Part shown: positions 3,304-15,461 of the stretch, piece after piece | Numbering within the stretch: position 1 is the stretch's first letter | Layout of the letters: every line of letters starts with the position of its first letter | Source of the DNA: a virus | Virus record (IMG/VR): IMGVR_UViG_3300020455_000063 | Coordinates: 1-31,055 of that record | Reading direction: 5' to 3' (one strand) | Length of the DNA stretch: 31,055 nt | The notes under the pieces: generated by a model | What the model was told of the DNA's origin: nothing | Database searches by the model: none | The model's input: the letters and a program-made list of their open reading frames with translations, nothing else | Translations under genes and position numbers: made by a program

Positions 3304-3311
3304 TATTTATG
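3304..3311 (-). promoter_or_regulatory. Predicted T4-type late promoter upstream of gp15
   Basis: CATAAATA on the minus strand, overlapping the gp14 stop codon (CCA TAA ATA) and ending 21 bases before the gp15 ATG. An AGGA ribosome-binding site sits between them, 8 bases before the start. Confidence 0.6.
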
Positions 3312-4749
3312 GAATTCCAAATGGGTTCTGCTCACTAAAGTCTAAAATATCATCTGCAGCAGATTCTATATTAACATTATCAGCATATCCATCCTCTGGA
3401 GGATCTTCACTAACGATCCTTAATGCATGAACAGCACCAGAAGTTCCTCCAGTTATATCTTCTCCAATACTAAACATTCCAGAAACATTTGCAACCTCTA
3501 GAACGTTTGTAGTAGCACTCCATGTTCTTACTCTTCCTGTTACACCTGTAATAGATCCAGTAACAACTTCATTAAACTTGAAGTTGCCACTATTATCAAG
3601 TGAAGGATCACCAATAGTAATTGTTGGACTAGATGTATATCCAGCACCAGCATTAGTAATATTGATGGCAGTAATGGTTCCAGCAGAACTTACGACTGCT
3701 TCAGCAGTTGCCCGTGTATTTGCTGCACCAACAGGTGCAGTAATAGTTACACTAGGTGCTGTAGTGTACCCAGAACCAGCATCAGTAAGTGTAACGATAC
3801 CAACTGCCCCATCACCTATAAAGACTGTTCCAGCAGCACCTGAACCCCCTCCACCAGTAATCTGGAGTGTAGGTGCAACAGTATACCCAGAGCCTGGATT
3901 TGTGATAACAACCTGTTGAACTGATTTGAGATTATCACTTATATTTAAGTTGCATACATTAATCCCACTAATCATCGTGGCAGTAAGAATACCTGTAACC
4001 TTACCAGCAGGAGCAGAACTCACTCCAATTGTTGGAATAGCACTATATCCACCACCTCTATTACTAATATTAATTAACCTAATAGATCCTTCAGTATTAA
4101 ATCCAACTTCAGCAGTAGCAGTTGCTCCAGTTCCTACAAGTGTAAGAGTCTGAGAATACCCAAGGAGTGTAGATGTACTTCCATCTTCTGCTATTCCATC
4201 AGAATCTTCTCCAGTTAGAATATCATCAATTTCATCTACACCAGTATCGATAACTTCATCTTCGTAACGGAAGAGTTCACACTTAAGAGTATATACATAT
4301 GTCTTCTGAAGTTGATAGAATGGTTTCTCATGTTCTACATACTTAATCTCAAATAAACGATCACCTAATGGAAAATAAACTAGATCACCCTCTTTAGGTC
4401 GGGTAGTTAACTTTACATTAGATTCGTTTTTAAGTAATGGTTGAATATATGTTTCCCATCTTTCTCTAGAAATAACAAGAGTCACTTCATTCGTCTGTTC
4501 AATACCAAACTTAGATAGTAATGTAGGATTATCTGCATAACCATCAAAGTTGTCAATATATGCTTCTAATGGATAAGAATCATTAAACTTTGATTTTACA
4601 ACTTCTCTTATTACCGTTTTTTCTTCCATATATTTTCTAGGAAGATAATGTATCTCGACACCATACATCCTCAACTGTTCGTTGATTAAATCCTGAACTA
4701 AATTCTGTTCAGATCTTGCACCTTGTTGAAAAAACGGATTAAGTGCCAT
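3307..4749 (-). CDS. gp14: Neck protein gp14 with inserted G-x-GY repeat region
   Basis: A homologue of T4 gp14 (256 residues), the partner of gp13 in the neck. The gp14 core is residues 1 to about 185: MALNPFFQQGARSEQNLVQD, then IHYLPRKY, the KFNDSYPLEAYIDN block, LLSKFGIE, EGDLVYFPLGDRLFEIKYVE and LKCELFRYEDE. The short C-terminus ILDFSEQNPFGIP also belongs to the core. Between them about 270 residues are inserted. They hold four G-x-GY modules (GGGYSAIPTIGV, GSGYTVAPTLQI, GSGYTTAPSVTI, GAGYTSSPTITI) and a module reading GRVRTWSATTNVLEVANVSG near residue 405. The same module types occur in gp7, gp8 and the DUF4815 protein, so they were probably spread by duplication or recombination. The gene overlaps gp13 by one base; an AGGA lies only 2 bases before its ATG. 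Its stop overlaps the gp15 promoter. Confidence 0.88.
   Translation of the reverse strand: MALNPFFQQGARSEQNLVQDLINEQLRMYGVEIHYLPRKYMEEKTVIREVVKSKFNDSYPLEAYIDNFDGYADNPTLLSKFGIEQTNEVTLVISRERWETYIQPLLKNESNVKLTTRPKEGDLVYFPLGDRLFEIKYVEHEKPFYQLQKTYVYTLKCELFRYEDEVIDTGVDEIDDILTGEDSDGIAEDGSTSTLLGYSQTLTLVGTGATATAEVGFNTEGSIRLINISNRGGGYSAIPTIGVSSAPAGKVTGILTATMISGINVCNLNISDNLKSVQQVVITNPGSGYTVAPTLQITGGGGSGAAGTVFIGDGAVGIVTLTDAGSGYTTAPSVTITAPVGAANTRATAEAVVSSAGTITAINITNAGAGYTSSPTITIGDPSLDNSGNFKFNEVVTGSITGVTGRVRTWSATTNVLEVANVSGMFSIGEDITGGTSGAVHALRIVSEDPPEDGYADNVNIESAADDILDFSEQNPFGIP
3595..4075 (-). repeat. Four tandem G-x-GY beta modules inside gp14
   Basis: The repeats are at residues about 228-245, 283-303, 319-340 and 362-382. 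Each follows the pattern N/D-(R/P/A)-G-(G/S/A)-GY-(S/T)-x-x-P-(T/S)-(I/L/V)-x-(I/V). The second also has a following Gly-rich GGGGSGA. On the plus strand each copy is marked by a tatayccas-like string (atatccacc, atacccagag, tacccagaac, atatccagca). Confidence 0.8.
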
Positions 4750-5600
4750 TATCCTATCATATCAAGTGGAGGAAGTTCATAAGTATTAGACATTTGTTCT
4801 CTGATGATTTCTAAATCTTTTTCTGCATCATCATAGATTTGTCTACCATTTAATTCTACCCCACCAGGCAATTTAACACCTTGGAACTTAAGTAAATTTT
4901 GACCCCACTGTCTTTTCATAAGAGCAGTAGCATATTTCTTCAAGAATGAATCATTCCATACTCTTCCATAATCATTAGGATTTAATTGACTGAAACAATC
5001 AATAACCAAGTAATCATTCTTAGAAACACTACCCCAATCAATATCAAGATATAATCTATCCATTCTTTTATTAAATCTTATTTGCTTCTCTGTTGTCAAT
5101 AAAAAATTGATATCTTCAAGATATGTTTTAGTCATGGCATAGGTCAACAATTCTGTTGCACCCCAATAATATATGTCATTTAAAAACATCTGATATTTAA
5201 CACTAAACATATTATTTGTCATAGTGTTAGTACCATCAAAATGATATATCTTTGTTACACCAATAACTGATGGTGGAATTTGTAAAAAGTTGCTATTTTC
5301 ATAATAAGTAAAAGTTACATCTGATCCAGCAATATCAGCAGTTGCTGTTGTAGTTGTTATTCCAGTTTGCTTTTTACCAGATTCCATCGAGGCTCTTCCC
5401 CGATCAATATCATCTTGAGTTATTTTATATTTAAGATATGTTTGTGCAACACCATCAAAATGCCTCTCCTGAAAGTATTGAACTGCATCATCTATCACAT
5501 CTTCTACCTGTTCATCAGCAATATTAATTTCCAGCACTGGAGCACCCAGTTGCCTTTTGCAATAGTTTACAAATTCTGTCCTATTTGATGGAGATGCCAT
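4749..5600 (-). CDS. gp13: Neck protein gp13
   Basis: A 283-residue homologue of T4 gp13 (309 residues), which forms the head-to-tail neck ring with gp14 after DNA packaging. The N-terminus MASPSNRTEFVNYCKRQLGA, followed by PVLEINIADEQVEDVIDDAV and QYFQERHFDG, is characteristic. So are the segment ending YWGATELLTYAMTKTYLED, the LDIDWG block, and the C-terminal motifs LMKRQWGQNLLKFQGVKLPG and GRQIYDDAEKDLE. The length is close to T4, with no added beta modules, unlike its neighbours. The start ATG at 5600 has an AGGGG 11 bases upstream and a late promoter over the preceding stop. The stop overlaps the gp14 start by one base (TAATG), which points to coupled translation of the two neck proteins in equal amounts. 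Confidence 0.9.
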   Translation of the reverse strand: MASPSNRTEFVNYCKRQLGAPVLEINIADEQVEDVIDDAVQYFQERHFDGVAQTYLKYKITQDDIDRGRASMESGKKQTGITTTTATADIAGSDVTFTYYENSNFLQIPPSVIGVTKIYHFDGTNTMTNNMFSVKYQMFLNDIYYWGATELLTYAMTKTYLEDINFLLTTEKQIRFNKRMDRLYLDIDWGSVSKNDYLVIDCFSQLNPNDYGRVWNDSFLKKYATALMKRQWGQNLLKFQGVKLPGGVELNGRQIYDDAEKDLEIIREQMSNTYELPPLDMIG

Positions 5601-5629: not shown

Positions 5630-6029
5630 GTGCAGAAGCTATGCCAGTATAAACTAGAATATTTCCATTTACTATATTGTAGATTGATGCTCCAGAACTT
5701 ACTAAAACATTATACTCATATCTTCCTTCCGAAAGACTTGTGGTTGCAGTTGATCCCATAGAGATGTCAAATATACCACCACCAGCACTTGTAAATCCTA
5801 CACTAAAAGTTCCTGCTGCAACTGTTGTAGCAGCTACACCTGCACTTTTTTGCATCTGAGCAGATCCTGTCCAAACTGAAGTAGTAGTTAATCCTTGAAA
5901 ATCAAAAGCAACATCAGACGTATCAACTACAGTAAAAGTAGTTTTAAAATCTGTGCCAGTATAAATGGTTAGATTAGCAGCATATGGTACACCTGCAGAT
6001 GGGTCAAATGTTAAATTTTTACTTGCCAT
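5625..6029 (-). CDS. Predicted small beta-rich virion protein (134 aa)
   Basis: I do not recognise a named family with certainty. The sequence is polar, Thr/Ser/Gly-rich and lacks cysteine. It alternates hydrophobic and polar residues (for example YAANLTIYTGTDFKTTFTVV, then GIFDISMGSTATTSLSEGRY and YNIVNGNILVYTG), which fits an all-beta domain such as a baseplate or fibre adaptor. The (G)xFDISM...L..GRYEY(N)V pattern resembles small structural proteins that define what can be displayed or bound in other phages' baseplates, but this is inference. The ATG at 6029 overlaps the preceding gene by 11 bp and is preceded by AAAGGA at good spacing, the best ribosome-binding site in the window. Its stop carries the late promoter of gp13. 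Confidence 0.7.
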   Translation of the reverse strand: MASKNLTFDPSAGVPYAANLTIYTGTDFKTTFTVVDTSDVAFDFQGLTTTSVWTGSAQMQKSAGVAATTVAAGTFSVGFTSAGGGIFDISMGSTATTSLSEGRYEYNVLVSSGASIYNIVNGNILVYTGIASAP

Positions 6030-6243
6030 TGACCAGTTCCTTTAATAGAGATTTTATTTCACCAATCTCACCTTTTAAATTAGCAAGATCTTGTTCCATA
6101 GATTCCACTCTTTCATTTTTTAAATTTTTTGCATTTCTAGATGCAATATAATGTTGATAATCCAAAGAATTTATGTTAACAATTGTACCTGTATGAGGAT
6201 CCCTTGCGAGATCCTTATGTCCTTCAATATTGTAAGGTTCCAT
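6019..6243 (-). CDS. Small conserved-type protein with C-terminal coiled coil (74 aa)
   Basis: A small, charged protein of unknown function. It starts MEPYNIEGHKDLARD, followed by HTGTIVNINSLDYQHYIASR, and ends in a leucine/isoleucine heptad segment (MEQDLANLKGEIGEIKSLLK) predicted to be a coiled coil. Proteins of this form (GHK-L-RD...G-I-(I/V)-N, then a Q/H-Y segment and KSLLKEL) are familiar near baseplate genes of marine T4-like phages. I chose the ATG at 6243 because it follows the upstream TAA by one base (TAAAATG). A TTG three codons upstream would overlap the DUF4815 gene by 8 bp. Its 3' end overlaps the next start by 11 bp, indicating translational coupling. It may be a small virion or assembly-assisting protein; the sequence does not say which. 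Confidence 0.7.
   Translation of the reverse strand: MEPYNIEGHKDLARDPHTGTIVNINSLDYQHYIASRNAKNLKNERVESMEQDLANLKGEIGEIKSLLKELVNGK
6033..6044 (-). promoter_or_regulatory. Ribosome-binding site of the 134-aa gene
   Basis: The minus strand reads TAAAGGAACTGGTCA immediately before the ATG at 6029, with the AGGA core 8 bases upstream of the start. It lies inside the coding end of the upstream small gene, which supports coupled translation and decides the start codon. Confidence 0.6.
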
Positions 6244-6244
6244 T

Positions 6245-9200
6245 TTAAGCAAGAGCCATTACACGTAGATCTTTAACTTTTGGAACAAATACCTGACTTG
6301 TAGATGTTAGTAGAAGTTTTATTCTATAATATCTAAAGGTGGGTAGTTTATCTGCTGTAAATGTAAACTCCTTAAAGCTTGCATTATCACCAAATCCATA
6401 TTGACTTGATGGAATAATAACCCTATCAGGCAATCCATCACTATTTTGTCTAGCAATCATTTCACCCCTACTGTTAAGATTATCAAATCCAGGGAAAGGA
6501 GTGAATATTGGTTCAAATCCAGGATCATTTCCAACCGCATAGAATGCTCTAATTTTAGCATGTGGGTTAACATGACCCGATAATATTATCTTAATTGAAG
6601 TAGCAGCACTTTCTAATTGAAGTTCTTTTGTAAGATACTGACAAGCAGTAGGATCATCAGTAACAGATTTTACTCTACTATCTGTAGCAAAGTTACTAAC
6701 CACACTATTGACTCTATTGTTTGTAAGAATGGTACTTACTCTTTGACTATCAATTACTGGACTTACTTTAGGATCAGTAGTTGCAAGAGTTAATCTCATT
6801 TGTAGAGACTTATTACCCTCAACTTGATCTAATTTTTCATCTTCATTAATCTTAGAATAAATTGCTCTTGGTGTGTCAAGATAATTTGGTTCACCTATTG
6901 CAATAGATTCAAATCCTTCATCAATATACGAAGTTTCATTTCCACTGATACTTGTTGCAGAAGTGGTTCTTATTTCACATCCTATATTAGTTCCTGTAGT
7001 AGTAACATTTTGAACTATTGGAGTAATAACTTCAAATGGCATATTTTGTGTTGCCTTTGTTTCATATCCTCCACATGACTTGGTTTGATTTAAGTATAAT
7101 TTAGGGAATCCAACATCATTACTTCTATCATCATTAATAGTTCCAATTCCAGTCATATCAAGTTTGATATTATAAGAATCGAAAGTAATTGATCCAGAAG
7201 TAGATGTTGATGTAGTAGTTGAAAGTCCATGAGTTGCATTTATTCTCTTCAAACTGACCCCACCAAGTTCATACTTATAAACAGGAGTTCCCACAGAATA
7301 ATCAACTTTATCATCACCCCTAGCAGAGATGCTAATCACATTACCAACTACATTATTATATTCAACAATTTCTTTTCCAATTTTAACATAACCTCTATTA
7401 GTTGTACCAACTCCAACATTTTCAAAGTTTGTATATACAGTTGCATCATCAACAGTAAATGAAGCTTCATTACCAGTTTCCAATGCAATACTCAATTTAG
7501 ATGGTTTAATATCAGATTGAACATCAGATAATTTAACCCTATTTTGAGTAGAATACATTCCATGATTCTTATGATTCACTTTAATGTGCAAACCATCAGA
7601 TTCAACATCAATAGAACTAATTTGAACGTCACCACCATTAACATATCCAAGTTCAGTTTTAATTCCAGAACTGTTTGTATAGAATAGTGTGTTAGCAGTA
7701 CCAACAACAAATTCACCTTGAACATTATCAATAGTTAATTCGTTAGTCATTCCTATGCCAGTAATACTAAATCTAGCATTACGTCCAACAGTTCCACTAC
7801 CACCTGTAGAAATTCCAATAGTAGTAATACCAAGAACATCTCCTACAGAATATCCTGTACCACCATTAGTAATAGTAGCAGCAGCTGCAACTCCATTGTT
7901 TACATAAACATTAGCAACTGCTCCTTTTCCAGTGCCTGTAATAGTAACTAGATTTACACTACCAAATGTTTGATTACCATCAAGAGGTGTATATCCAATA
8001 CCAGCATTAGTAATATTTAAACCAGCGGGAATAATAGATCCACCAGCACCAACAATATTACCTTCGGCCATTGTTCCATCTTGAATAATGGTATTACCCA
8101 TTTCATAACTATCACCAACAGTTTGATCAAGACCAACTCTTATTTTTCTAGAACTTAGAATTATTGAATCTGGTTGTAGAGTAGGAATTTGATTATTTCC
8201 TACAGTCAATTCTGGATTATAAAATTCAATAGTGCCTGATGTCTCAAACTCTGCTCTATACATTGTAAATTTCAAATCTTCCCATTGACTTGGTTCCCAT
8301 GTAGACGCATTTTGAGACTTGAAGAGAGAACCTAAGTATGGTTGGTTGGAAATAAATGTATCAGTTAATAGATCGGTTTCACCAATTCTTGAAATATAAA
8401 CACTATACTTAGTAGAGTTAGATGCTAAAGCTACTGCATATTCAGTATTATTACCTTCAAGATAAACAGGTGCTTTAAAAGTAACTGTTGTTGCTATAGA
8501 TCCATCTGCAGAAATATTAACTTCTGCAGGATCTAATACAATTTCAGAGAAAGGAAGAACATGTTGTGTTGGTAATCCATTCTTCATAGATCTAATTTGG
8601 AATACCACAGGTATGTCCATATCATCTTTTGTTCTGAAGAATACGTCACACTTGGTAACAAATATTCCACCAGGATCTTCAACTAAGAATGATTGAGCAA
8701 GAGGGTCATACCATCCAATAATTTGTTGAGTAGTGTTATCTGCAATTATTTCACTTGAAAGAACTTCAGTTCCAAGAGTTCTATTAACATTCCTATCTTG
8801 GAATTGTTGTCTTTGTTCAACTCTTGCATTTCTAACAGAAATAATATTCTCTTGAACACTTTCTAATGTTCCAGCAGATGTAAATGTTTCATCAGTAACA
8901 GTTGTAGCATTATCAGGATTGTTGTCTGCATCATTAGTTAATGTAAGAACTTTACTTCCTGTCTCAAATCTTGGGAAACTAATATTGTTGGGATTAGGGA
9001 TATAGAAGGATCCACCACAGAATGCACCAATATCAGAAAGAAGTTGGACTTCATCGATAGTTGCAATTGCACCACTACTCTGACCTCTTAAAACCATTCC
9101 AGATTGAACCCAACCATAATAAGATCCTTGTGGTTCATTGGATAATGAGAATGTATCTATATTCAAGATATTAGAAGTAGATGAATAAGATGCAGGGAAA

Positions 9201-12200
9201 CTCTGATTTGTATAAGGGTTTTCTGCAAAAACCTTAGTAGGGATATTATATGGTCCTTCTTTATGATTTGACTGTGCTACTCTAAATCTAATTTCAGGTA
9301 AACTTTCAGCAGTTATTTGACTGAGACCTGTTGGATTAACCATTCCTCTAACAGTTTCACCTACTTGGAAAGATCCAGATGTCATAGAAATTTGAAGGAT
9401 CTTAGGCACACAATACTTAGTGACATCTTGACCATCAAAGAAAGCATACAGTTTTGTTAGAGGTTTAAGTCTCTTAGCAATAAATTCAACATTTCTAGAT
9501 CTCATGAAAGGAACGAGATCTCTACTTACAACTCTATCACCAACTGAAGTTCTCTCAAATGATTCAGTAACCAATGTCTGAGTACCTGTTCTATTCTCTA
9601 CACCTTGTTCGGTTATTGTTCTTACAGTTTCTCTATCTACACGATTAATTGTTTCTCTAATTCTTCTAGCAGGGTTTCCAAATCCACCACTAAAGTTGTT
9701 AATCCAACCACCCATTCCAAAGACACGAGTTTGATTAGAAATAGTAGTATCTCTCGTAGTATCATTAGTTGTTGTTCCTGTCCATGTAGTCTGCCATGAA
9801 CCCCAAGTTACTGGTCCAAATCCAGTCTGTGCATCTATTTCACCATTATCAACCATTCTATTATAAACGGATTGATAATCACCTTCCACATTAATAATTT
9901 TAGGTTGTAATCTAGCAGTATCAACCCATGTATCAGAAGATGGTGTGATCTCCATAGTTCCTTGCCAGAAACTAATTAAGAAAGGAGTAACACTTTCAGA
10001 CCTTGTAGCAAAACTTTGCTTTAACCATTCAACTTCAGAATAATCTAAAGTTATAATATCATTTTTCTTTCTTACATTTATTCCTTCAATTGTAGAAAAA
10101 TTAAGATCGTCTGTAGGATCATTACCAACAACTGGTCCAAAAATTAAATCAACAGAGTTGGTATAATGTCTTGGTCTTAATTCTTTATTTTTAGGATCAA
10201 TACTATTATTAATAGGAATTCCTTGTTCTTGAGTTTTGAATCCAGTAAAATTATCAACAAAGAATCCAGACTTAAATCTATTCAATCCATCACTATCAGA
10301 TACAAAAAGATTTGCTGTATTAGTTTCCAATAAAGAAAGAGTTGTGTAATATTCAAGGTTCTTAATTCTATTCTCAAGATTTTTAATATCAGACATCGTA
10401 AATCTCTTACGATCTAAGAAATCAATCTGTGCTCCAGCAACATTATAAAGATATGGTGGAAGTCGAACAGTAGCTATTTCAATAGCACCATCAACAGGAA
10501 CAGGTTTTTGTGGATCTTCTCCAGGATCTCCATATTTTATTTGAAATTGACCTTCCTTACTTAAGAATATTCTATCAATTCTTCCAAGATAGAATGAATA
10601 ATCAATCAATAAAGACTCATCAGATGCTAAAATATTAGGAGCAGAGTTTCCAGATGCATTAAAGTTTCTTCCTTTAAATTCAAGTGGAGATCTATCTCCT
10701 TCAGAAACAGAAGTTACTTGAGTTGCTCTTGGTCTGATATCAATTATATCAGAGTTAGAAGTTCCATCAAATTTTGGAATATCTATTCCATAATCATATT
10801 GATCATAAGAATTAGAAGTTATAAAATCACCATTATCTCCAGCATCGAACGATCCATTAGAATAGAATATTTTTATCTTCTTAGATGGGGAATCCGAATC
10901 AAATTTTCTTTTAATTTGACCAATATTGTAAATAGTTGACTGTTGACCATCTACAAATGAGAAATTTGGAGATATGTCAAAACTTGGAGAATCTAGACTT
11001 GAAACTACTGCACTAGAACCAGATTCTTGGAAATTTACAATCTCTCCTTCTGTAAATAAATGTTCATTTTGATAAATTATAGTAATTTGACTATCACTTG
11101 GTTTTTCTGCAACCATTGCAACAGCATCACTAGATTGACCAATTATTTGCTCACCAATAATTAATTCATTTGTCGTTGTAGATTGTGTTACAATCGAAGA
11201 AAGATTAACTTTAGGTGATGATGGATCACTAGTATCTGCTGATTCATATATTGATAATACTTCTATAATATCAGCATCATTTATAGAAATATTTTTATCT
11301 TGAACTCTTGTCCCATATGGATAAGCACCATAAGTTAATCCATCATTTAGTGTTGTAGTTCCTATACCAGAAGCAGCATCTTTAGAGAAATTAACAACTA
11401 CCGATTTAACCCTATTTCTTATTTTCTGTTTTGCCTTTGGTTTTTGCTTCTTAAGAGTGGCAATTAAAGTTGCTCCTTTATTTGCAGCAGGAGGATCAGT
11501 TAAACCACGAATTTGGCAAGTATTTCCAGATCCAAAATCAAATTGATCTTCTGTCAATTCATGAGTTTTACCATCTGCACCAATCAAAGAATATCTCTTT
11601 GGAGTGAATGGTTGAAAACTTTCGTTAGTATCTACTGTAGGAACAGGAGTTTCAAATCTGCCACTACTAATATTAACCTTAAAAGTTTTTCTTATAACAA
11701 CCGAAGCACCAGTTAAATCAACATTAGATATATTTGACTTAGAAAGTCTTGTGACTAAAGTATTATCAGTAGAAACATCAAATTTAGTTGATAAAACTTT
11801 TAAATCACTTACTTCTTTATATTGTGCGGTTGATGTAATACCAGCAGCTGCAGATACGGTGGGTAATCCACCATTACATACACCACTTACAGTGGCAACA
11901 CCAACAACAGAAACAGAATTTGAAGATACACTAATAACTCTTGCTAAAATAGGATCTTCAGATATTGTAAGATCACTATATTGAATAAGATTACCAATAG
12001 TAGTAATACCTGGAAAATTAGGATTAGTACTTTGTATTACAGTTCCAGCAGCTCCCTTATCTACCCCAACTGTAGCAATACCAACATCAAATAAAGTAGA
12101 TGGAATTATATTTGCACTAAAAGTATTAATACCAATAGTATTATCATCAGTTCCATAAAGAGACTTGACATCAGAAACTGTATAGTCAGTAATCCCTATT

Positions 12201-13861
12201 GCAGTTCTTCCATTATTAATACCATTAATTATTAATGGTTCATCTGCAATAAAATTACCATTTTTCTCATAAACAGTTAATCCCACTCCAGAAGTAACGG
12301 ATCCAACAAGAAAAGCAGTTGCTCCACTATTTTTTCCTTCAATAAAAGCAGGAACAGATTGTGTTATTGGTTGATTTAATGTAAGTTCACTAAAAGTTTG
12401 TACATCATATAGTGATAAATCCCACTGATTTTTAGATCTATCACTTTCTGCAACTTCATACGTACCTGATTCTAATCTAAAATCATACACTCTTGCAACA
12501 CCAATTTCTTGTCCTGGTGCTCCTTCAGAGTTTACACCAACTCTCTCATCCCTTAAACTTAGAACATATGTACTACCAATACCTACTGTGGGAGTTCTAA
12601 AGACACTATTGATTTTAAATGTTGGACCAGTATTATAAATTATTGATTGATCTTTTAATGTGTTTATATCTCTTGGTTTAGGTACATCTAGGAATGTTGG
12701 ATTAAGTGTTTCAATCTCATAACCTTTAACATAAGCTTTACCTGGAGATAATTTATATAATGCTAAGTCGTCACTTGGCGTTTCTCCACCTGGTGTAAAT
12801 TGACCTGCATTAAATACTCCTCTGTTTCCAATATTATCATTTAAAGATTCTAGAAGAGTAATATCAAATGGTTTTACATCATAATTACCACTTTCATCAT
12901 AAGTTCTTCTTGCAAGAGTATCAGTTAGATCAAAATTCTTTGAATATACACCACTAAATCCACCAAGAGCAGCTCCCCCTGCAGATCCTTTTCTTTGAGT
13001 TCTAAGGACACCATCATTTATTACTGCCAATTCAACAAAACTATTATCATCAAAATCATCAGTAGATTTTTTAAATAAACTTAAGGATATTTTTAATCTA
13101 TCAGCACCAGGTGCAGAATAATTATTAAATCCTTGTGAATTATCATTTAAACTTTCATCTATATCTGCATTTATTATTTCCTCATTTACAAATAGTCCTA
13201 CCCTATAACTTGGAGAATTGTTATACTGATCGAGAATAAGAGTTTCTTGATTTACATTACAGAATTGTCCACGAACAAAATATACACCATTTTGAATTTG
13301 AAAAGATGATCCAGTTACAGCAGCATTATTAGACACTGTAGTTCCAAATGGAGCACCAGCAGAAATTGCAGTATTGCCCAATAATCCTGAAGTTATTATT
13401 TCAGAACATGTTAACTCTTCTCCATCAGAAAATACTTGAGTAGAATTATTTGATGTGTTAGATGATATATAATTTATATAAAGAGTAAGTTGACCCCTTT
13501 CAGAATTCTCTGCTAATAAAACACTATCTACAACAGCACTTACACCAGACCTCTGACCTGTTATTTTTGTTCCAATTAGTTGATCAACATAAGCTGATAC
13601 AGGAACTCCTTGATAATTATTATTAATTTGTATACCATAATATATACGATTATAACCAGTATTACCAGGTATTACCTTTGCACCTTCTTTAAAAAAATGT
13701 TGACCAAACTTTTCAATCTGATTTTGCAGTATGGACTGTAAAGCTGTTAATTCTCTAGCTTGAACAGGATATCCTGGCTTAAATAAAACCCGATAAAAGT
13801 CATCAGACGAATCATAATCGTCAAAATATGGGGATACATTTAAGTTGGTTTGCTGTGGCAT
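6245..13861 (-). CDS. Giant DUF4815 virion structural protein (2538 aa), probable peripheral baseplate/fibre connector
   Basis: The N-terminus (MPQQTNLNVSPYFDD, then FKPGYPVQARELTALQSILQ and GQHFFKEGAKVIPGN) is that of DUF4815 proteins, which are frequent in marine T4-like phages downstream of gp8. Other segments typical of these proteins are LKPLTKLYAFFDGQDVTKYC near residue 1470 and FLVEDPGGIFVTKCDVFFRT near 1725. The C-terminus ends RYYRIKLLLTSTSQVFVPKVKDLRVMAL. A Thr-rich stretch lies near residues 1350-1390 and G-x-GY modules near 1950-2005. T4 has gp9-gp10-gp11-gp12-wac at this position; none is recognisable here, so I infer that this protein takes over part of the peripheral wedge and fibre-attachment role. 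It has no signal peptide or membrane segment. No Shine-Dalgarno is visible before the ATG at 13861. Which T4 protein, if any, it is homologous to is unresolved. Confidence 0.82.
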   Translation of the reverse strand: MPQQTNLNVSPYFDDYDSSDDFYRVLFKPGYPVQARELTALQSILQNQIEKFGQHFFKEGAKVIPGNTGYNRIYYGIQINNNYQGVPVSAYVDQLIGTKITGQRSGVSAVVDSVLLAENSERGQLTLYINYISSNTSNNSTQVFSDGEELTCSEIITSGLLGNTAISAGAPFGTTVSNNAAVTGSSFQIQNGVYFVRGQFCNVNQETLILDQYNNSPSYRVGLFVNEEIINADIDESLNDNSQGFNNYSAPGADRLKISLSLFKKSTDDFDDNSFVELAVINDGVLRTQRKGSAGGAALGGFSGVYSKNFDLTDTLARRTYDESGNYDVKPFDITLLESLNDNIGNRGVFNAGQFTPGGETPSDDLALYKLSPGKAYVKGYEIETLNPTFLDVPKPRDINTLKDQSIIYNTGPTFKINSVFRTPTVGIGSTYVLSLRDERVGVNSEGAPGQEIGVARVYDFRLESGTYEVAESDRSKNQWDLSLYDVQTFSELTLNQPITQSVPAFIEGKNSGATAFLVGSVTSGVGLTVYEKNGNFIADEPLIINGINNGRTAIGITDYTVSDVKSLYGTDDNTIGINTFSANIIPSTLFDVGIATVGVDKGAAGTVIQSTNPNFPGITTIGNLIQYSDLTISEDPILARVISVSSNSVSVVGVATVSGVCNGGLPTVSAAAGITSTAQYKEVSDLKVLSTKFDVSTDNTLVTRLSKSNISNVDLTGASVVIRKTFKVNISSGRFETPVPTVDTNESFQPFTPKRYSLIGADGKTHELTEDQFDFGSGNTCQIRGLTDPPAANKGATLIATLKKQKPKAKQKIRNRVKSVVVNFSKDAASGIGTTTLNDGLTYGAYPYGTRVQDKNISINDADIIEVLSIYESADTSDPSSPKVNLSSIVTQSTTTNELIIGEQIIGQSSDAVAMVAEKPSDSQITIIYQNEHLFTEGEIVNFQESGSSAVVSSLDSPSFDISPNFSFVDGQQSTIYNIGQIKRKFDSDSPSKKIKIFYSNGSFDAGDNGDFITSNSYDQYDYGIDIPKFDGTSNSDIIDIRPRATQVTSVSEGDRSPLEFKGRNFNASGNSAPNILASDESLLIDYSFYLGRIDRIFLSKEGQFQIKYGDPGEDPQKPVPVDGAIEIATVRLPPYLYNVAGAQIDFLDRKRFTMSDIKNLENRIKNLEYYTTLSLLETNTANLFVSDSDGLNRFKSGFFVDNFTGFKTQEQGIPINNSIDPKNKELRPRHYTNSVDLIFGPVVGNDPTDDLNFSTIEGINVRKKNDIITLDYSEVEWLKQSFATRSESVTPFLISFWQGTMEITPSSDTWVDTARLQPKIINVEGDYQSVYNRMVDNGEIDAQTGFGPVTWGSWQTTWTGTTTNDTTRDTTISNQTRVFGMGGWINNFSGGFGNPARRIRETINRVDRETVRTITEQGVENRTGTQTLVTESFERTSVGDRVVSRDLVPFMRSRNVEFIAKRLKPLTKLYAFFDGQDVTKYCVPKILQISMTSGSFQVGETVRGMVNPTGLSQITAESLPEIRFRVAQSNHKEGPYNIPTKVFAENPYTNQSFPASYSSTSNILNIDTFSLSNEPQGSYYGWVQSGMVLRGQSSGAIATIDEVQLLSDIGAFCGGSFYIPNPNNISFPRFETGSKVLTLTNDADNNPDNATTVTDETFTSAGTLESVQENIISVRNARVEQRQQFQDRNVNRTLGTEVLSSEIIADNTTQQIIGWYDPLAQSFLVEDPGGIFVTKCDVFFRTKDDMDIPVVFQIRSMKNGLPTQHVLPFSEIVLDPAEVNISADGSIATTVTFKAPVYLEGNNTEYAVALASNSTKYSVYISRIGETDLLTDTFISNQPYLGSLFKSQNASTWEPSQWEDLKFTMYRAEFETSGTIEFYNPELTVGNNQIPTLQPDSIILSSRKIRVGLDQTVGDSYEMGNTIIQDGTMAEGNIVGAGGSIIPAGLNITNAGIGYTPLDGNQTFGSVNLVTITGTGKGAVANVYVNNGVAAAATITNGGTGYSVGDVLGITTIGISTGGSGTVGRNARFSITGIGMTNELTIDNVQGEFVVGTANTLFYTNSSGIKTELGYVNGGDVQISSIDVESDGLHIKVNHKNHGMYSTQNRVKLSDVQSDIKPSKLSIALETGNEASFTVDDATVYTNFENVGVGTTNRGYVKIGKEIVEYNNVVGNVISISARGDDKVDYSVGTPVYKYELGGVSLKRINATHGLSTTTSTSTSGSITFDSYNIKLDMTGIGTINDDRSNDVGFPKLYLNQTKSCGGYETKATQNMPFEVITPIVQNVTTTGTNIGCEIRTTSATSISGNETSYIDEGFESIAIGEPNYLDTPRAIYSKINEDEKLDQVEGNKSLQMRLTLATTDPKVSPVIDSQRVSTILTNNRVNSVVSNFATDSRVKSVTDDPTACQYLTKELQLESAATSIKIILSGHVNPHAKIRAFYAVGNDPGFEPIFTPFPGFDNLNSRGEMIARQNSDGLPDRVIIPSSQYGFGDNASFKEFTFTADKLPTFRYYRIKLLLTSTSQVFVPKVKDLRVMALA

Positions 13862-13867
13862 GATTTT

Positions 13868-15424
13868 TTAAAACTGCAAAACTATTTTGATATCTTCTTT
13901 TTGGTTTATTGACCGAGTAATAGCTGGTCTATTATCAACAAAAATAATATTTCCTGAGTATTTTTTAACCTCTGGATTAGCAATACCTTCAGTAAAACTT
14001 TGGCCAAGATAATATGTTCTATTATTTAGAACGGTAGAGAGACCCGTAAATCCAGTATCAATTTCTAAAGTAGATCCAGATGATGGGGTAATTTCAACAT
14101 TTCCTCCAGTACTAGGAGATGCAGTAAATGCATTCAAATTAAATCCATATTGTGGTTCTGTTAGTGCCGTTCCCACAGTATTAAAACCTGCAAGAGTCCT
14201 ATCTTGCCAATATTTTAAAACTCCAGTAGTTGAATCATAATTAACCACTCTTCCTACTGCAGTAGATCCAGTTGCAATGGTCTGTGTAATATAAGAATCT
14301 GCAGTAAATGTAGCAGAACTATATCCAGTTCCTGTTAATCTCAAAGCACCAAGAGAACTTGCTTTATCTGAAGTTAAAAGTGATGTAGAATCGAATTGTT
14401 GAGGATTACATACAACACCAACTCTTGCAATATCATTACCAGTTATAAAATCTGGATTTTCATTATCATTTTCAATTCTAGAATATAAAAGAACATTATA
14501 AGCACCAAGTTCTCTATAAATGTTAGAACCATGTCCACCTTGAGGAGGAATAATAACATCAAACAAAGGTCTCGTGCTTCCAGTAGGAACACTACCTGCA
14601 TCTAAATCAACACTTCCATAAGTATATCCAGATCCTTGTTTAGAAACAACTATACTATCAACTTGTTGGTCATTAGTAGTTGTAATAGTACACTCTGCTC
14701 CTGATCCATCTCCCTTAATAGGAACATTTCGATATTCGGTTCCACCCACAGGACCAATACTTACTCCCCTATTAGTCACGGTTATAATTTTAATAGATCC
14801 ATCTACAGCATTATCTCTCACTGATGCATTATCATTACTAGTCTCCCAATCTTTCGGGACTGGCATAAAATCTGTAGAATCAAATTTTACAATATCTGAA
14901 GGTTTAATTGTGTAAAGATATTTCCAAATATAATTATCCCCACTACTTCCAGCAGACCTTGGTTCTAAATCAGTAAAAGTTGGTTCATCTAATGATGGTC
15001 TTCCATTAGGATTATCAGGATCTGTACCATTTTGAAGGCATTCATAAACCCTATAATCACTGTTTATGACATAATAAGTTGTTGTATATAAATTGGTTGC
15101 ACCTGAAACTGGAGCAGTATTTGTTCTACTATAATCTCCCCTATACATGTCATAGGTAGTACCTGATGACCATACTCTTTTAGTTATAACTTGTTTTGCA
15201 TCTGTTGCATTTATTTTTTTCAACGCAATTATACTATCCCAATAATTACTTTCTTCCGAAAAACTATCTTTAGGGGATGGTGGAGTTGTATTCCAATCAG
15301 TCGCAACATCAGTAGGATTGGGTAATCCAACAAAAGAATAATATGCATTTGTACTAGAACTCACTCCAGCAACAAAATTCTTCGCATTCAATATTCTAAT
15401 CTGATCAGTTATTATAGCAGCCAT
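13868..15424 (-). CDS. gp8: Baseplate wedge protein gp8
   Basis: A 518-residue homologue of T4 gp8 (334 residues), a wedge subunit that binds gp7 and gp10 in T4. The recognisable part is the N-terminal half: MAAIITDQIRILNAKNF, the SYWDSIIALKK-like segment NYWDSIIALKKI, RVWSSGTTYDMYRGDYS, YYVINSDYRVYECL and the YIWKYLYTIKPSDIVKF block near residue 170. The extra length comes from inserted beta modules. One is a G-x-GY unit (KQGSGYT, near residue 260) preceded by GDGSGAECTITT; the other is a GRVVNYDSTTGVLKYWQD segment near 385-400 that resembles modules in gp14 and gp7. The ATG follows a late-promoter element by 19 bases, with only a weak ribosome-binding site. The stop is 6 bp before the DUF4815 gene, so the pair is one unit. 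Confidence 0.88.
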   Translation of the reverse strand: MAAIITDQIRILNAKNFVAGVSSSTNAYYSFVGLPNPTDVATDWNTTPPSPKDSFSEESNYWDSIIALKKINATDAKQVITKRVWSSGTTYDMYRGDYSRTNTAPVSGATNLYTTTYYVINSDYRVYECLQNGTDPDNPNGRPSLDEPTFTDLEPRSAGSSGDNYIWKYLYTIKPSDIVKFDSTDFMPVPKDWETSNDNASVRDNAVDGSIKIITVTNRGVSIGPVGGTEYRNVPIKGDGSGAECTITTTNDQQVDSIVVSKQGSGYTYGSVDLDAGSVPTGSTRPLFDVIIPPQGGHGSNIYRELGAYNVLLYSRIENDNENPDFITGNDIARVGVVCNPQQFDSTSLLTSDKASSLGALRLTGTGYSSATFTADSYITQTIATGSTAVGRVVNYDSTTGVLKYWQDRTLAGFNTVGTALTEPQYGFNLNAFTASPSTGGNVEITPSSGSTLEIDTGFTGLSTVLNNRTYYLGQSFTEGIANPEVKKYSGNIIFVDNRPAITRSINQKEDIKIVLQF

Positions 15425-15443
15425 TTGGACAGAGATTTTTCTT

Positions 15444-15451
15444 TATTTATT
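15444..15451 (-). promoter_or_regulatory. Predicted T4-type late promoter upstream of gp8
   Basis: The minus strand reads AATAAATA, matching the NATAAATA element used by gp55-type late sigma factors in T4-like phages. It lies in the 37-bp gap between gp7 and gp8, 19 bases before the gp8 ATG. Similar spacing recurs at three other junctions in this window. It is the only one of the five candidates not overlapping the upstream stop codon. Confidence 0.6.
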
Positions 15452-15461
15452 AATGATTTGA

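Follow-up and report, generated by a model that had tools for sequence, protein, structure and literature searches.

A giant protein between gp8 and gp13 of a marine phage is a version of a recognised tail-baseplate protein family and not a fusion of five T4 genes

Results

Gene content and order of the locus

The window analysed here is a whole record, a virus fragment of 31,055 bases, and the analysis of that genome is confined to it. All genes discussed lie on the minus strand and follow the order gp6 (partial), a gp7-type giant of 4726 aa, gp8, a DUF4815 protein of 2538 aa (hereafter the giant), two small open reading frames (ORFs) of 74 aa and 134 aa, gp13, gp14, gp15, gp16 and a fibre-like protein of 572 aa (Table 1). 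The giant is encoded by an uninterrupted ORF of 2538 codons. ORF calls and profiles confirmed the original prediction that between gp8 and gp13 the window holds a single protein of this size plus two small ORFs, and inspection of T4 confirmed that the same slot there is taken by gp9, gp10, gp11, gp12 and wac.

Table 1 Features of the window around the giant.
Feature	Coordinates	Strand	Basis or remark
Candidate fibre gene, coiled-coil fibre-like protein, 572 aa	74..1792	-	after gp16; phrog_28263 'tail fiber protein' 4.5e-32
gp13-type neck protein	4749..5600	-	phrog_211 5e-50; downstream of the giant
Possible fibre-assembly factor, 134 aa	5625..6029	-	phrog_1084 / phrog_3304 (3.6e-15, 4.2e-15)
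Small coiled-coil protein, 74 aa, phrog_473, A511 gp107 family	6019..6243	-	directly 3' of the giant
DUF4815 / VrlC-VriC / gp106-TmpG family protein, predicted peripheral baseplate protein, 2538 aa	6245..13861	-	DUF4815 9e-55, phrog_358, phi812 chain 5e-42, folds
C-terminal beta-sandwich domain of the giant, residues 2383-2538	6248..6715	-	9euf_0 alignment
Lectin-like beta-sandwich of the giant, residues 1719-1872, best conserved domain	8246..8707	-	VIA-align
gp8-type baseplate wedge	13868..15424	-	PF09215 1.3e-13, phrog_438 3.1e-166; upstream of the giant
gp7/gp8 junction, 37 bases, empty; slot of a gp9/10-type connector in other phages	15425..15461	-	
gp7-type giant baseplate wedge protein, 4726 aa	15462..29642	-	phrog_2885, 3834.7 bits; S-SM2 counterpart called gp7

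Judged by gp15, the nearest complete isolates are the Synechococcus phages S-SM2 (68.7%), Bellamy (68.2%) and SynMITS9220M01 (65.2%), in which the gene order around the giant is identical, plus one more small ORF of about 60 aa. Closer still is Marine virus AG-345-E15, a single-cell record available in fragments (giant 87.5%, gp15 94.7%). The 4726-aa gp7-type protein, the largest of the window, carries a YHYH domain (residues 1286-1387, 3.4e-21).

Two neighbouring genes could be related to fibres. Both PHROGs families matched by the 134-aa protein are labelled 'L-shaped tail fiber protein assembly', and the identical label occurs at the identical place in S-SM2 and Bellamy; the match to the LtfC family of Pfam reached only 0.021 and lies under the LtfC cut-off. 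As far as these family matches go, the protein is possibly a fibre-assembly factor. The 572-aa gene after gp16 is a candidate carrier of the missing fibre function. S-SM2 and Bellamy have an annotated tail fiber protein where the window has this gene.

The giant is related to DUF4815 proteins over its whole length

DUF4815 was found in three stretches of the giant above the Pfam cut-off (186.5 bits, cut-off 30) and was the only Pfam family detected at E ≤ 0.05, while phrog_358 spans residues 1-2538, i.e. the whole length, with 2080 bits. Members of the family are named VrlC or VriC in cyanophages and Ackermannviridae and gp106 or TmpG in Herelleviridae. VrlC is the RefSeq name of the counterparts in S-SM1 and S-SM2 (phrog_358, T4-GC 400), which, like the giant, occupy the slot between gp8 and gp13, have a similar length and match over their full length. 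A tblastn search with the giant retrieved 1534 phage records, with 392 matches covering 80% or more of the query; among the matches listed, the names were mostly those of Synechococcus, Staphylococcus and Salmonella phages, together with others. The sequence search of the PDB (E ≤ 1) returned a single distinct sequence, the DUF4815 protein of the phi812 baseplate, in five stretches. In the PDB this chain appears as a single protein with a length of 1152 aa, whereas the DUF4815 homologue of phage 812 isolate K1, the record of a host-range mutant, is annotated as two adjacent ORFs of 619 and 531 aa (L009:11686-15143). DUF4815 above the cut-off was also observed in the Synechococcus elongatus genome that served as a control, where it perhaps belongs to a prophage or a tail-like particle.

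Alignment with the homologues of P-RSM1, P-TIM68, Melnitz-2, Ag3 (VriC) and Listeria phage LP-124 revealed conserved blocks along the entire giant. Ag3 VriC aligned with 1571 of the 2538 residues (467 identical) and LP-124 with 1094 (272 identical), the remaining residues being insertions. About half of the giant's residues are insertions of cyanophages and marine phages that are absent from the homologues of Gram-positive phages.

Profile comparisons with hhalign extended the relationship to both halves of the protein. Residues 1-1200 matched A511 gp106 (99.6% probability), the first ORF of phi812 (99.7%) and Ag3 VriC (100%), and residues 1339-2538 matched A511 gp106 (99.9% and 74.6%), the second ORF of phi812 (99.9%) and Ag3 (100%). 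The profile signal of the phi812 C-terminal domain was almost nil (1.4%), and homology at the C-terminus therefore rests on the fold and on the A511 match of 74.6%.

The giant and T4 gp9 to gp12 and wac

The original prediction held that the giant replaces the T4 block and may be a one-protein peripheral baseplate. With regard to replacement, what stands is the position, with no gp9-gp12 or wac gene between gp8 and gp13; it is also the only likeness that we found to this T4 block. The profiles of the giant matched T4 gp9, gp10, gp11, gp12 and wac with a probability of at most 1.1%, i.e. at the level of the controls T4 gp13 and gp15 (at most 0.6%); with T4 gp7 and gp8 included, the ceiling was 1.2%. 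The N-terminal domain of gp9/10 (PF07880, T4_gp9_10_N) was not found in the giant (hhalign at most 0.5%), the giant was unmatched by the profiles of T4 gp11 (PF08677) and gp12 (phrog_910) in the Pfam and PHROGs searches, and T4 contains no DUF4815.

Homologues of gp9-gp12 elsewhere in the genome, which the original prediction had named as counter-evidence, were sought in the window and in relatives. The window had no match to the gp9/10 N-domain profile, the gp10 family or the fibritin C-domain. Profile searches of the nearest complete relatives (S-SM2, Bellamy and SynMITS9220M01) for PF07880, the gp9/10 N-domain, gp10, gp11, gp12 and the fibritin C-domain likewise recognised none, so that the counter-evidence was not seen there, although the gp9/10 N-domain profile is blind to strongly diverged connectors; T4 was recovered as the positive control in every gp9-gp12 and fibritin search. 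Among the 8 records searched for gp11 and gp12 only T4 had them, and among the 9 searched for the fibritin C-domain again only T4. PF07880 is also absent from Ag3, LP-124 and phi812; Ag3 contains one short match of 23 residues to the gp9/10 N-domain profile (E 9.5e-4), which was not counted as a connector. Fibre modules without the gp9/10 N-domain (phrog_677) occur, for example, in Bellamy at 33636-34154 and 105131-105613. Sullivan 2010 (PMC3037559) placed gp7, gp10 and gp12 among the genes that belong to the core of non-cyanophages alone, with the expectation that cyanophages have diverged copies of them.

Four complete DUF4815 genomes, namely P-RSM1, S-SM1, P-TIM68 and Melnitz-2, encode a protein with the gp9/10 N-domain between gp7 and gp8, and thus the giant and a gp9/10-type connector coexist. 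The match of these four genomes to the gp10 family is limited to the first ~40 residues, and the connector of S-SM1 is already called gp9 in RefSeq. S-SM1 differs in this respect from the S-SM2 clade, in which no gp9-like connector was found at the sequence level. With the gp9-like protein of P-RSM1 as query, we obtained matches in 329 phage records, 287 of which covered 80% or more of the query, and all of the records are named cyanophage, Prochlorococcus, Synechococcus, Methylophilales or 'Marine'.

Taken literally, the idea of a one-protein peripheral baseplate would mean that gp9, gp10, gp11 and gp12 are fused or replaced in one giant. The location between gp8 and gp13 and the fact that the window lacks all five genes agree with it, but the profile probabilities are as low as those of the controls, connectors co-occur with the giant and its full-length DUF4815 homology extends to phages outside the T4 group, which makes this reading scarcely credible and leaves the one-protein baseplate without support. 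A fusion of gp9 to gp12 as such was rejected on the basis of the profile comparison and the co-occurrence with connectors.

The gp7/gp8 junction

We examined the junction in 114 IMG/VR loci in which gp8 adjoins DUF4815 and at least 3 kb lies above gp8. In 42 of them the C-terminus of gp7 stands directly against gp8, with no gp9/10-N ORF in the examined stretch; 30 carry a gp9/10-N ORF upstream of gp8, no locus shows both states and 42 show neither (41, 28, 0 and 42 of 111 after removal of three duplicate pairs), numbers that do not represent population rates because similarity to DUF4815 proteins guided the choice of loci. With 37 bases between the two genes, the window falls into the class with gp7 against gp8. 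As judged from these sequences, the junction is a polymorphic slot where a gp9/10 connector comes and goes. In other relatives, as noted in connection with the loci L053, L076, L086, L088 and L089, the slot is filled with gp9/10-N connectors and fibre genes.

Such empty junctions could point to a functional take-over in the S-SM2/Bellamy clade: without being descended from gp9, gp10 or gp11, the DUF4815 protein would, with its pyramid and the neighbouring proteins, cover their jobs as well, namely fibre docking and the trigger of contraction. This would be in line with the 42 junctions in which gp7 abuts gp8 and with the three complete relatives that lack matches to the gp9/10 N-domain, gp10, gp11, gp12 and the fibritin C-domain. 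However, the DUF4815 protein is about as long in phages with a connector (P-TIM68 2624 aa, P-RSM1 2409 aa, S-SM1 2390 aa) as in the window without one, and so shows no domain gained upon connector loss. In addition, divergent connectors may escape the profiles, and fibre modules are located elsewhere in the genome, as in Bellamy. We therefore regard a take-over as unlikely. The same doubt applies to a fuller form of it, in which the clade of S-SM2, Bellamy and the window would have lost the connector, gp11 and gp12, and in which nothing but the pyramid, its gp107-like partner and the neighbour of 134 aa would couple fibres or receptors to baseplate switching; if true, a T4-type wedge core would be run by a periphery of the SPO1/A511 type. 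We rather propose that fibre docking in the clade of S-SM2, Bellamy and SynMITS9220M01 depends on something unrecognised, and in many relatives on a gp9/10-type connector.

Predicted fold of the giant

AlphaFold2 models were built for residues 1-1200 (pLDDT 86.1) and 1339-2538 (pLDDT 84.8) from alignments of 108 and 107 rows, respectively. Each half had only three Foldseek matches at E ≤ 0.001, the phi812 baseplate chains 9euf_0, 9eui_Q and 9euj_G. The comparison of predicted segments with gp9, gp10 and gp11, as suggested in the original prediction, thus led to phi812 chains as the only confident fold matches; the three T4 proteins were not named among the best 50 matches listed per fold search, beyond which unlisted families may still lie. 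In VIA-align, most of the C-terminal half superimposed on residues 678-1151 of the phi812 chain (Z 19.5, 438 aligned, rmsd 4.7) and the N-terminal half on the same protein with Z 14.3 (340 aligned, rmsd 8.7).

The lectin-like domain aligned with 9eui_Q at Z 21.4 (rmsd 1.6, 149 aligned, 34% identity) and with the lectin-like domain of Cwp84, 4ci7_B, at Z 11.3 (rmsd 3.0, 132 aligned), a match already published for homologues of Bacillus phages (PMC11406892). For the C-terminal beta-sandwich, the alignment with 9euf_0 reaches the last model residue of the giant and residue 1151 of the chain; similarity to Eph ligand-binding domains (Z ~6.5) falls in a range that the tool calls common.

An insertion domain at residues 881-960 could be superimposed, over 72-73 residues, on baseplate chains of a Klebsiella phage (Z 8.4) and of T4 (Z 8.1, rmsd 2.1 over 72 residues; Foldseek E 0.053). 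The T4 chain is as long as gp7 and, with its 1004 residues, is presumably this protein. It has been proposed for pelagi- and cyanomyophages that VrlC stands in for T4 gp7 (PMC7029224), and the resemblance of the 72-residue barrel to this chain would fit. Yet a separate gp7-type gene adjoins gp8 in the window, its counterpart bears the name gp7 in S-SM2, and comparison of the giant's profiles with T4 gp7 gave at most 1.2% probability, so that we do not favour this role and consider it very unlikely. A barrel module with an SGAxAxV-like motif is common to residues 875-964 of the giant (10970-11239) and residues 372-442 of gp14 (3307-4749; iE 1.2e-5); the motif was not found by sequence in T4 gp7.

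A small coiled-coil protein follows the giant

The 74-aa ORF directly downstream of the giant has the N-terminal motif RD..A(I/V). A TTG start (to 6252) is less likely than the ATG, since the latter corresponds to the start codon of most relatives. We collected 175 DUF4815 ORFs whose 3' end is intact and is followed by over 500 bases of sequence, and judged the small ORF by a length rule; it was present in 170 of them. A profile of 14 members matches 163 of the 170 small ORFs (151/158 without the seeds), and 177 of its 183 matches in all ORFs examined lie no more than 120 bases from the end of a DUF4815 ORF. A511 gp107 and a 52-aa ORF of phi812 are members of the family, which follows DUF4815 in three phage groups, namely cyanophages, Ackermann-type phages and the Gram-positive phages of the A511/phi812 kind. 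The place of the small protein in phi812 was not found because the PDB sequence search with the 74-aa protein returned only chance matches to coiled coils. According to a review, A511 gp107 may belong to the gp106 pyramids (PMC9863714). From its location and distribution we regard the 74-aa protein as a probable partner of the giant.

Discussion

Family membership, homology over the full length, the fold match to phi812 and the conserved neighbours characterise the giant as a DUF4815 protein. We are largely confident that it is a peripheral baseplate protein of the VrlC/VriC/gp106/TmpG family, forming a gp106-like pyramid at the rim, in a T4-like cyanophage near S-SM2 and Bellamy. The closest comparison is with A511 gp106 and the phi812 DUF4815 protein (9euf, 9eui, 9euj), which share the conserved blocks, the fold in both halves and a small ORF directly downstream; in A511 the order gp106 - gp107 equals that of the giant and its small ORF. 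These proteins have 1151-1152 aa, whereas the cyanophage giant is longer by about 1,400 residues, which are spread over several insertions. The Ackermannviridae member Ag3, a Shigella phage, shares the order VriC - small ORF - ORF - gp13, but its VriC has 1612 aa and is flanked by tail spikes, unlike the giant of the window.

These relationships agree with previous predictions. T4-like phages with VrlC were predicted in 2019 (PMC6630229) and in 2020 (PMC7029224) to have double-layered baseplates, the second publication covering pelagi- and cyanomyophages. Ackermannviridae are described in a review as being without gp9-gp11 and gp12, and their VriC may form prongs (PMC11721090). For A511, with its double-layered baseplate, trimers of gp106 are reported to form pyramids, which reorient towards the cell once the fibres have bound, and gp106 works alongside gp104, gp105 and gp108, which are wedge and fibre proteins in their own right (PMC9863714). 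Among the literature matches listed, no title indicated a structure of a double-layered baseplate in a cyanophage.

By analogy with A511 and phi812, the giant would be a trimer located at the rim, would swing and might bind sugars. Most likely, three copies would build a pyramid or prong at the rim of the baseplate, fastened to the wedge or to the proximal part of a fibre, and the lectin-like domain and the C-terminal beta-sandwich would lie farthest out. Once the fibres have bound, these pyramids would swing against the surface of the cell and hold the baseplate in place for contraction, in the way reported for A511 gp106. The small coiled-coil protein of 74 aa may help the giant to fold or may be part of the pyramid, while fibres would be docked by other proteins and not by the giant.

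We met no description of the small-partner family or of the junction pattern in the literature, in which they were not specifically sought, and claim no priority. An empty gp9-gp12 slot with a giant inside is tempting to read as a fused baseplate rim, a misreading that the present analysis corrects: the giant belongs to a family of tail-baseplate proteins that had been recognised before, here in its marine phage form, and is not a fusion of five T4 genes. The DUF4815 protein is common to T4-like marine phages, Ackermannviridae and phages of Gram-positive bacteria with double-layered baseplates, and the solved phi812 chain provides a template for the giant. DUF4815 and the gp107-like small protein represent a conserved two-gene unit, which, together with the connector that is switched on and off at the gp7/gp8 junction, points to cultured cyanophages worth imaging for docking without gp9-gp12.
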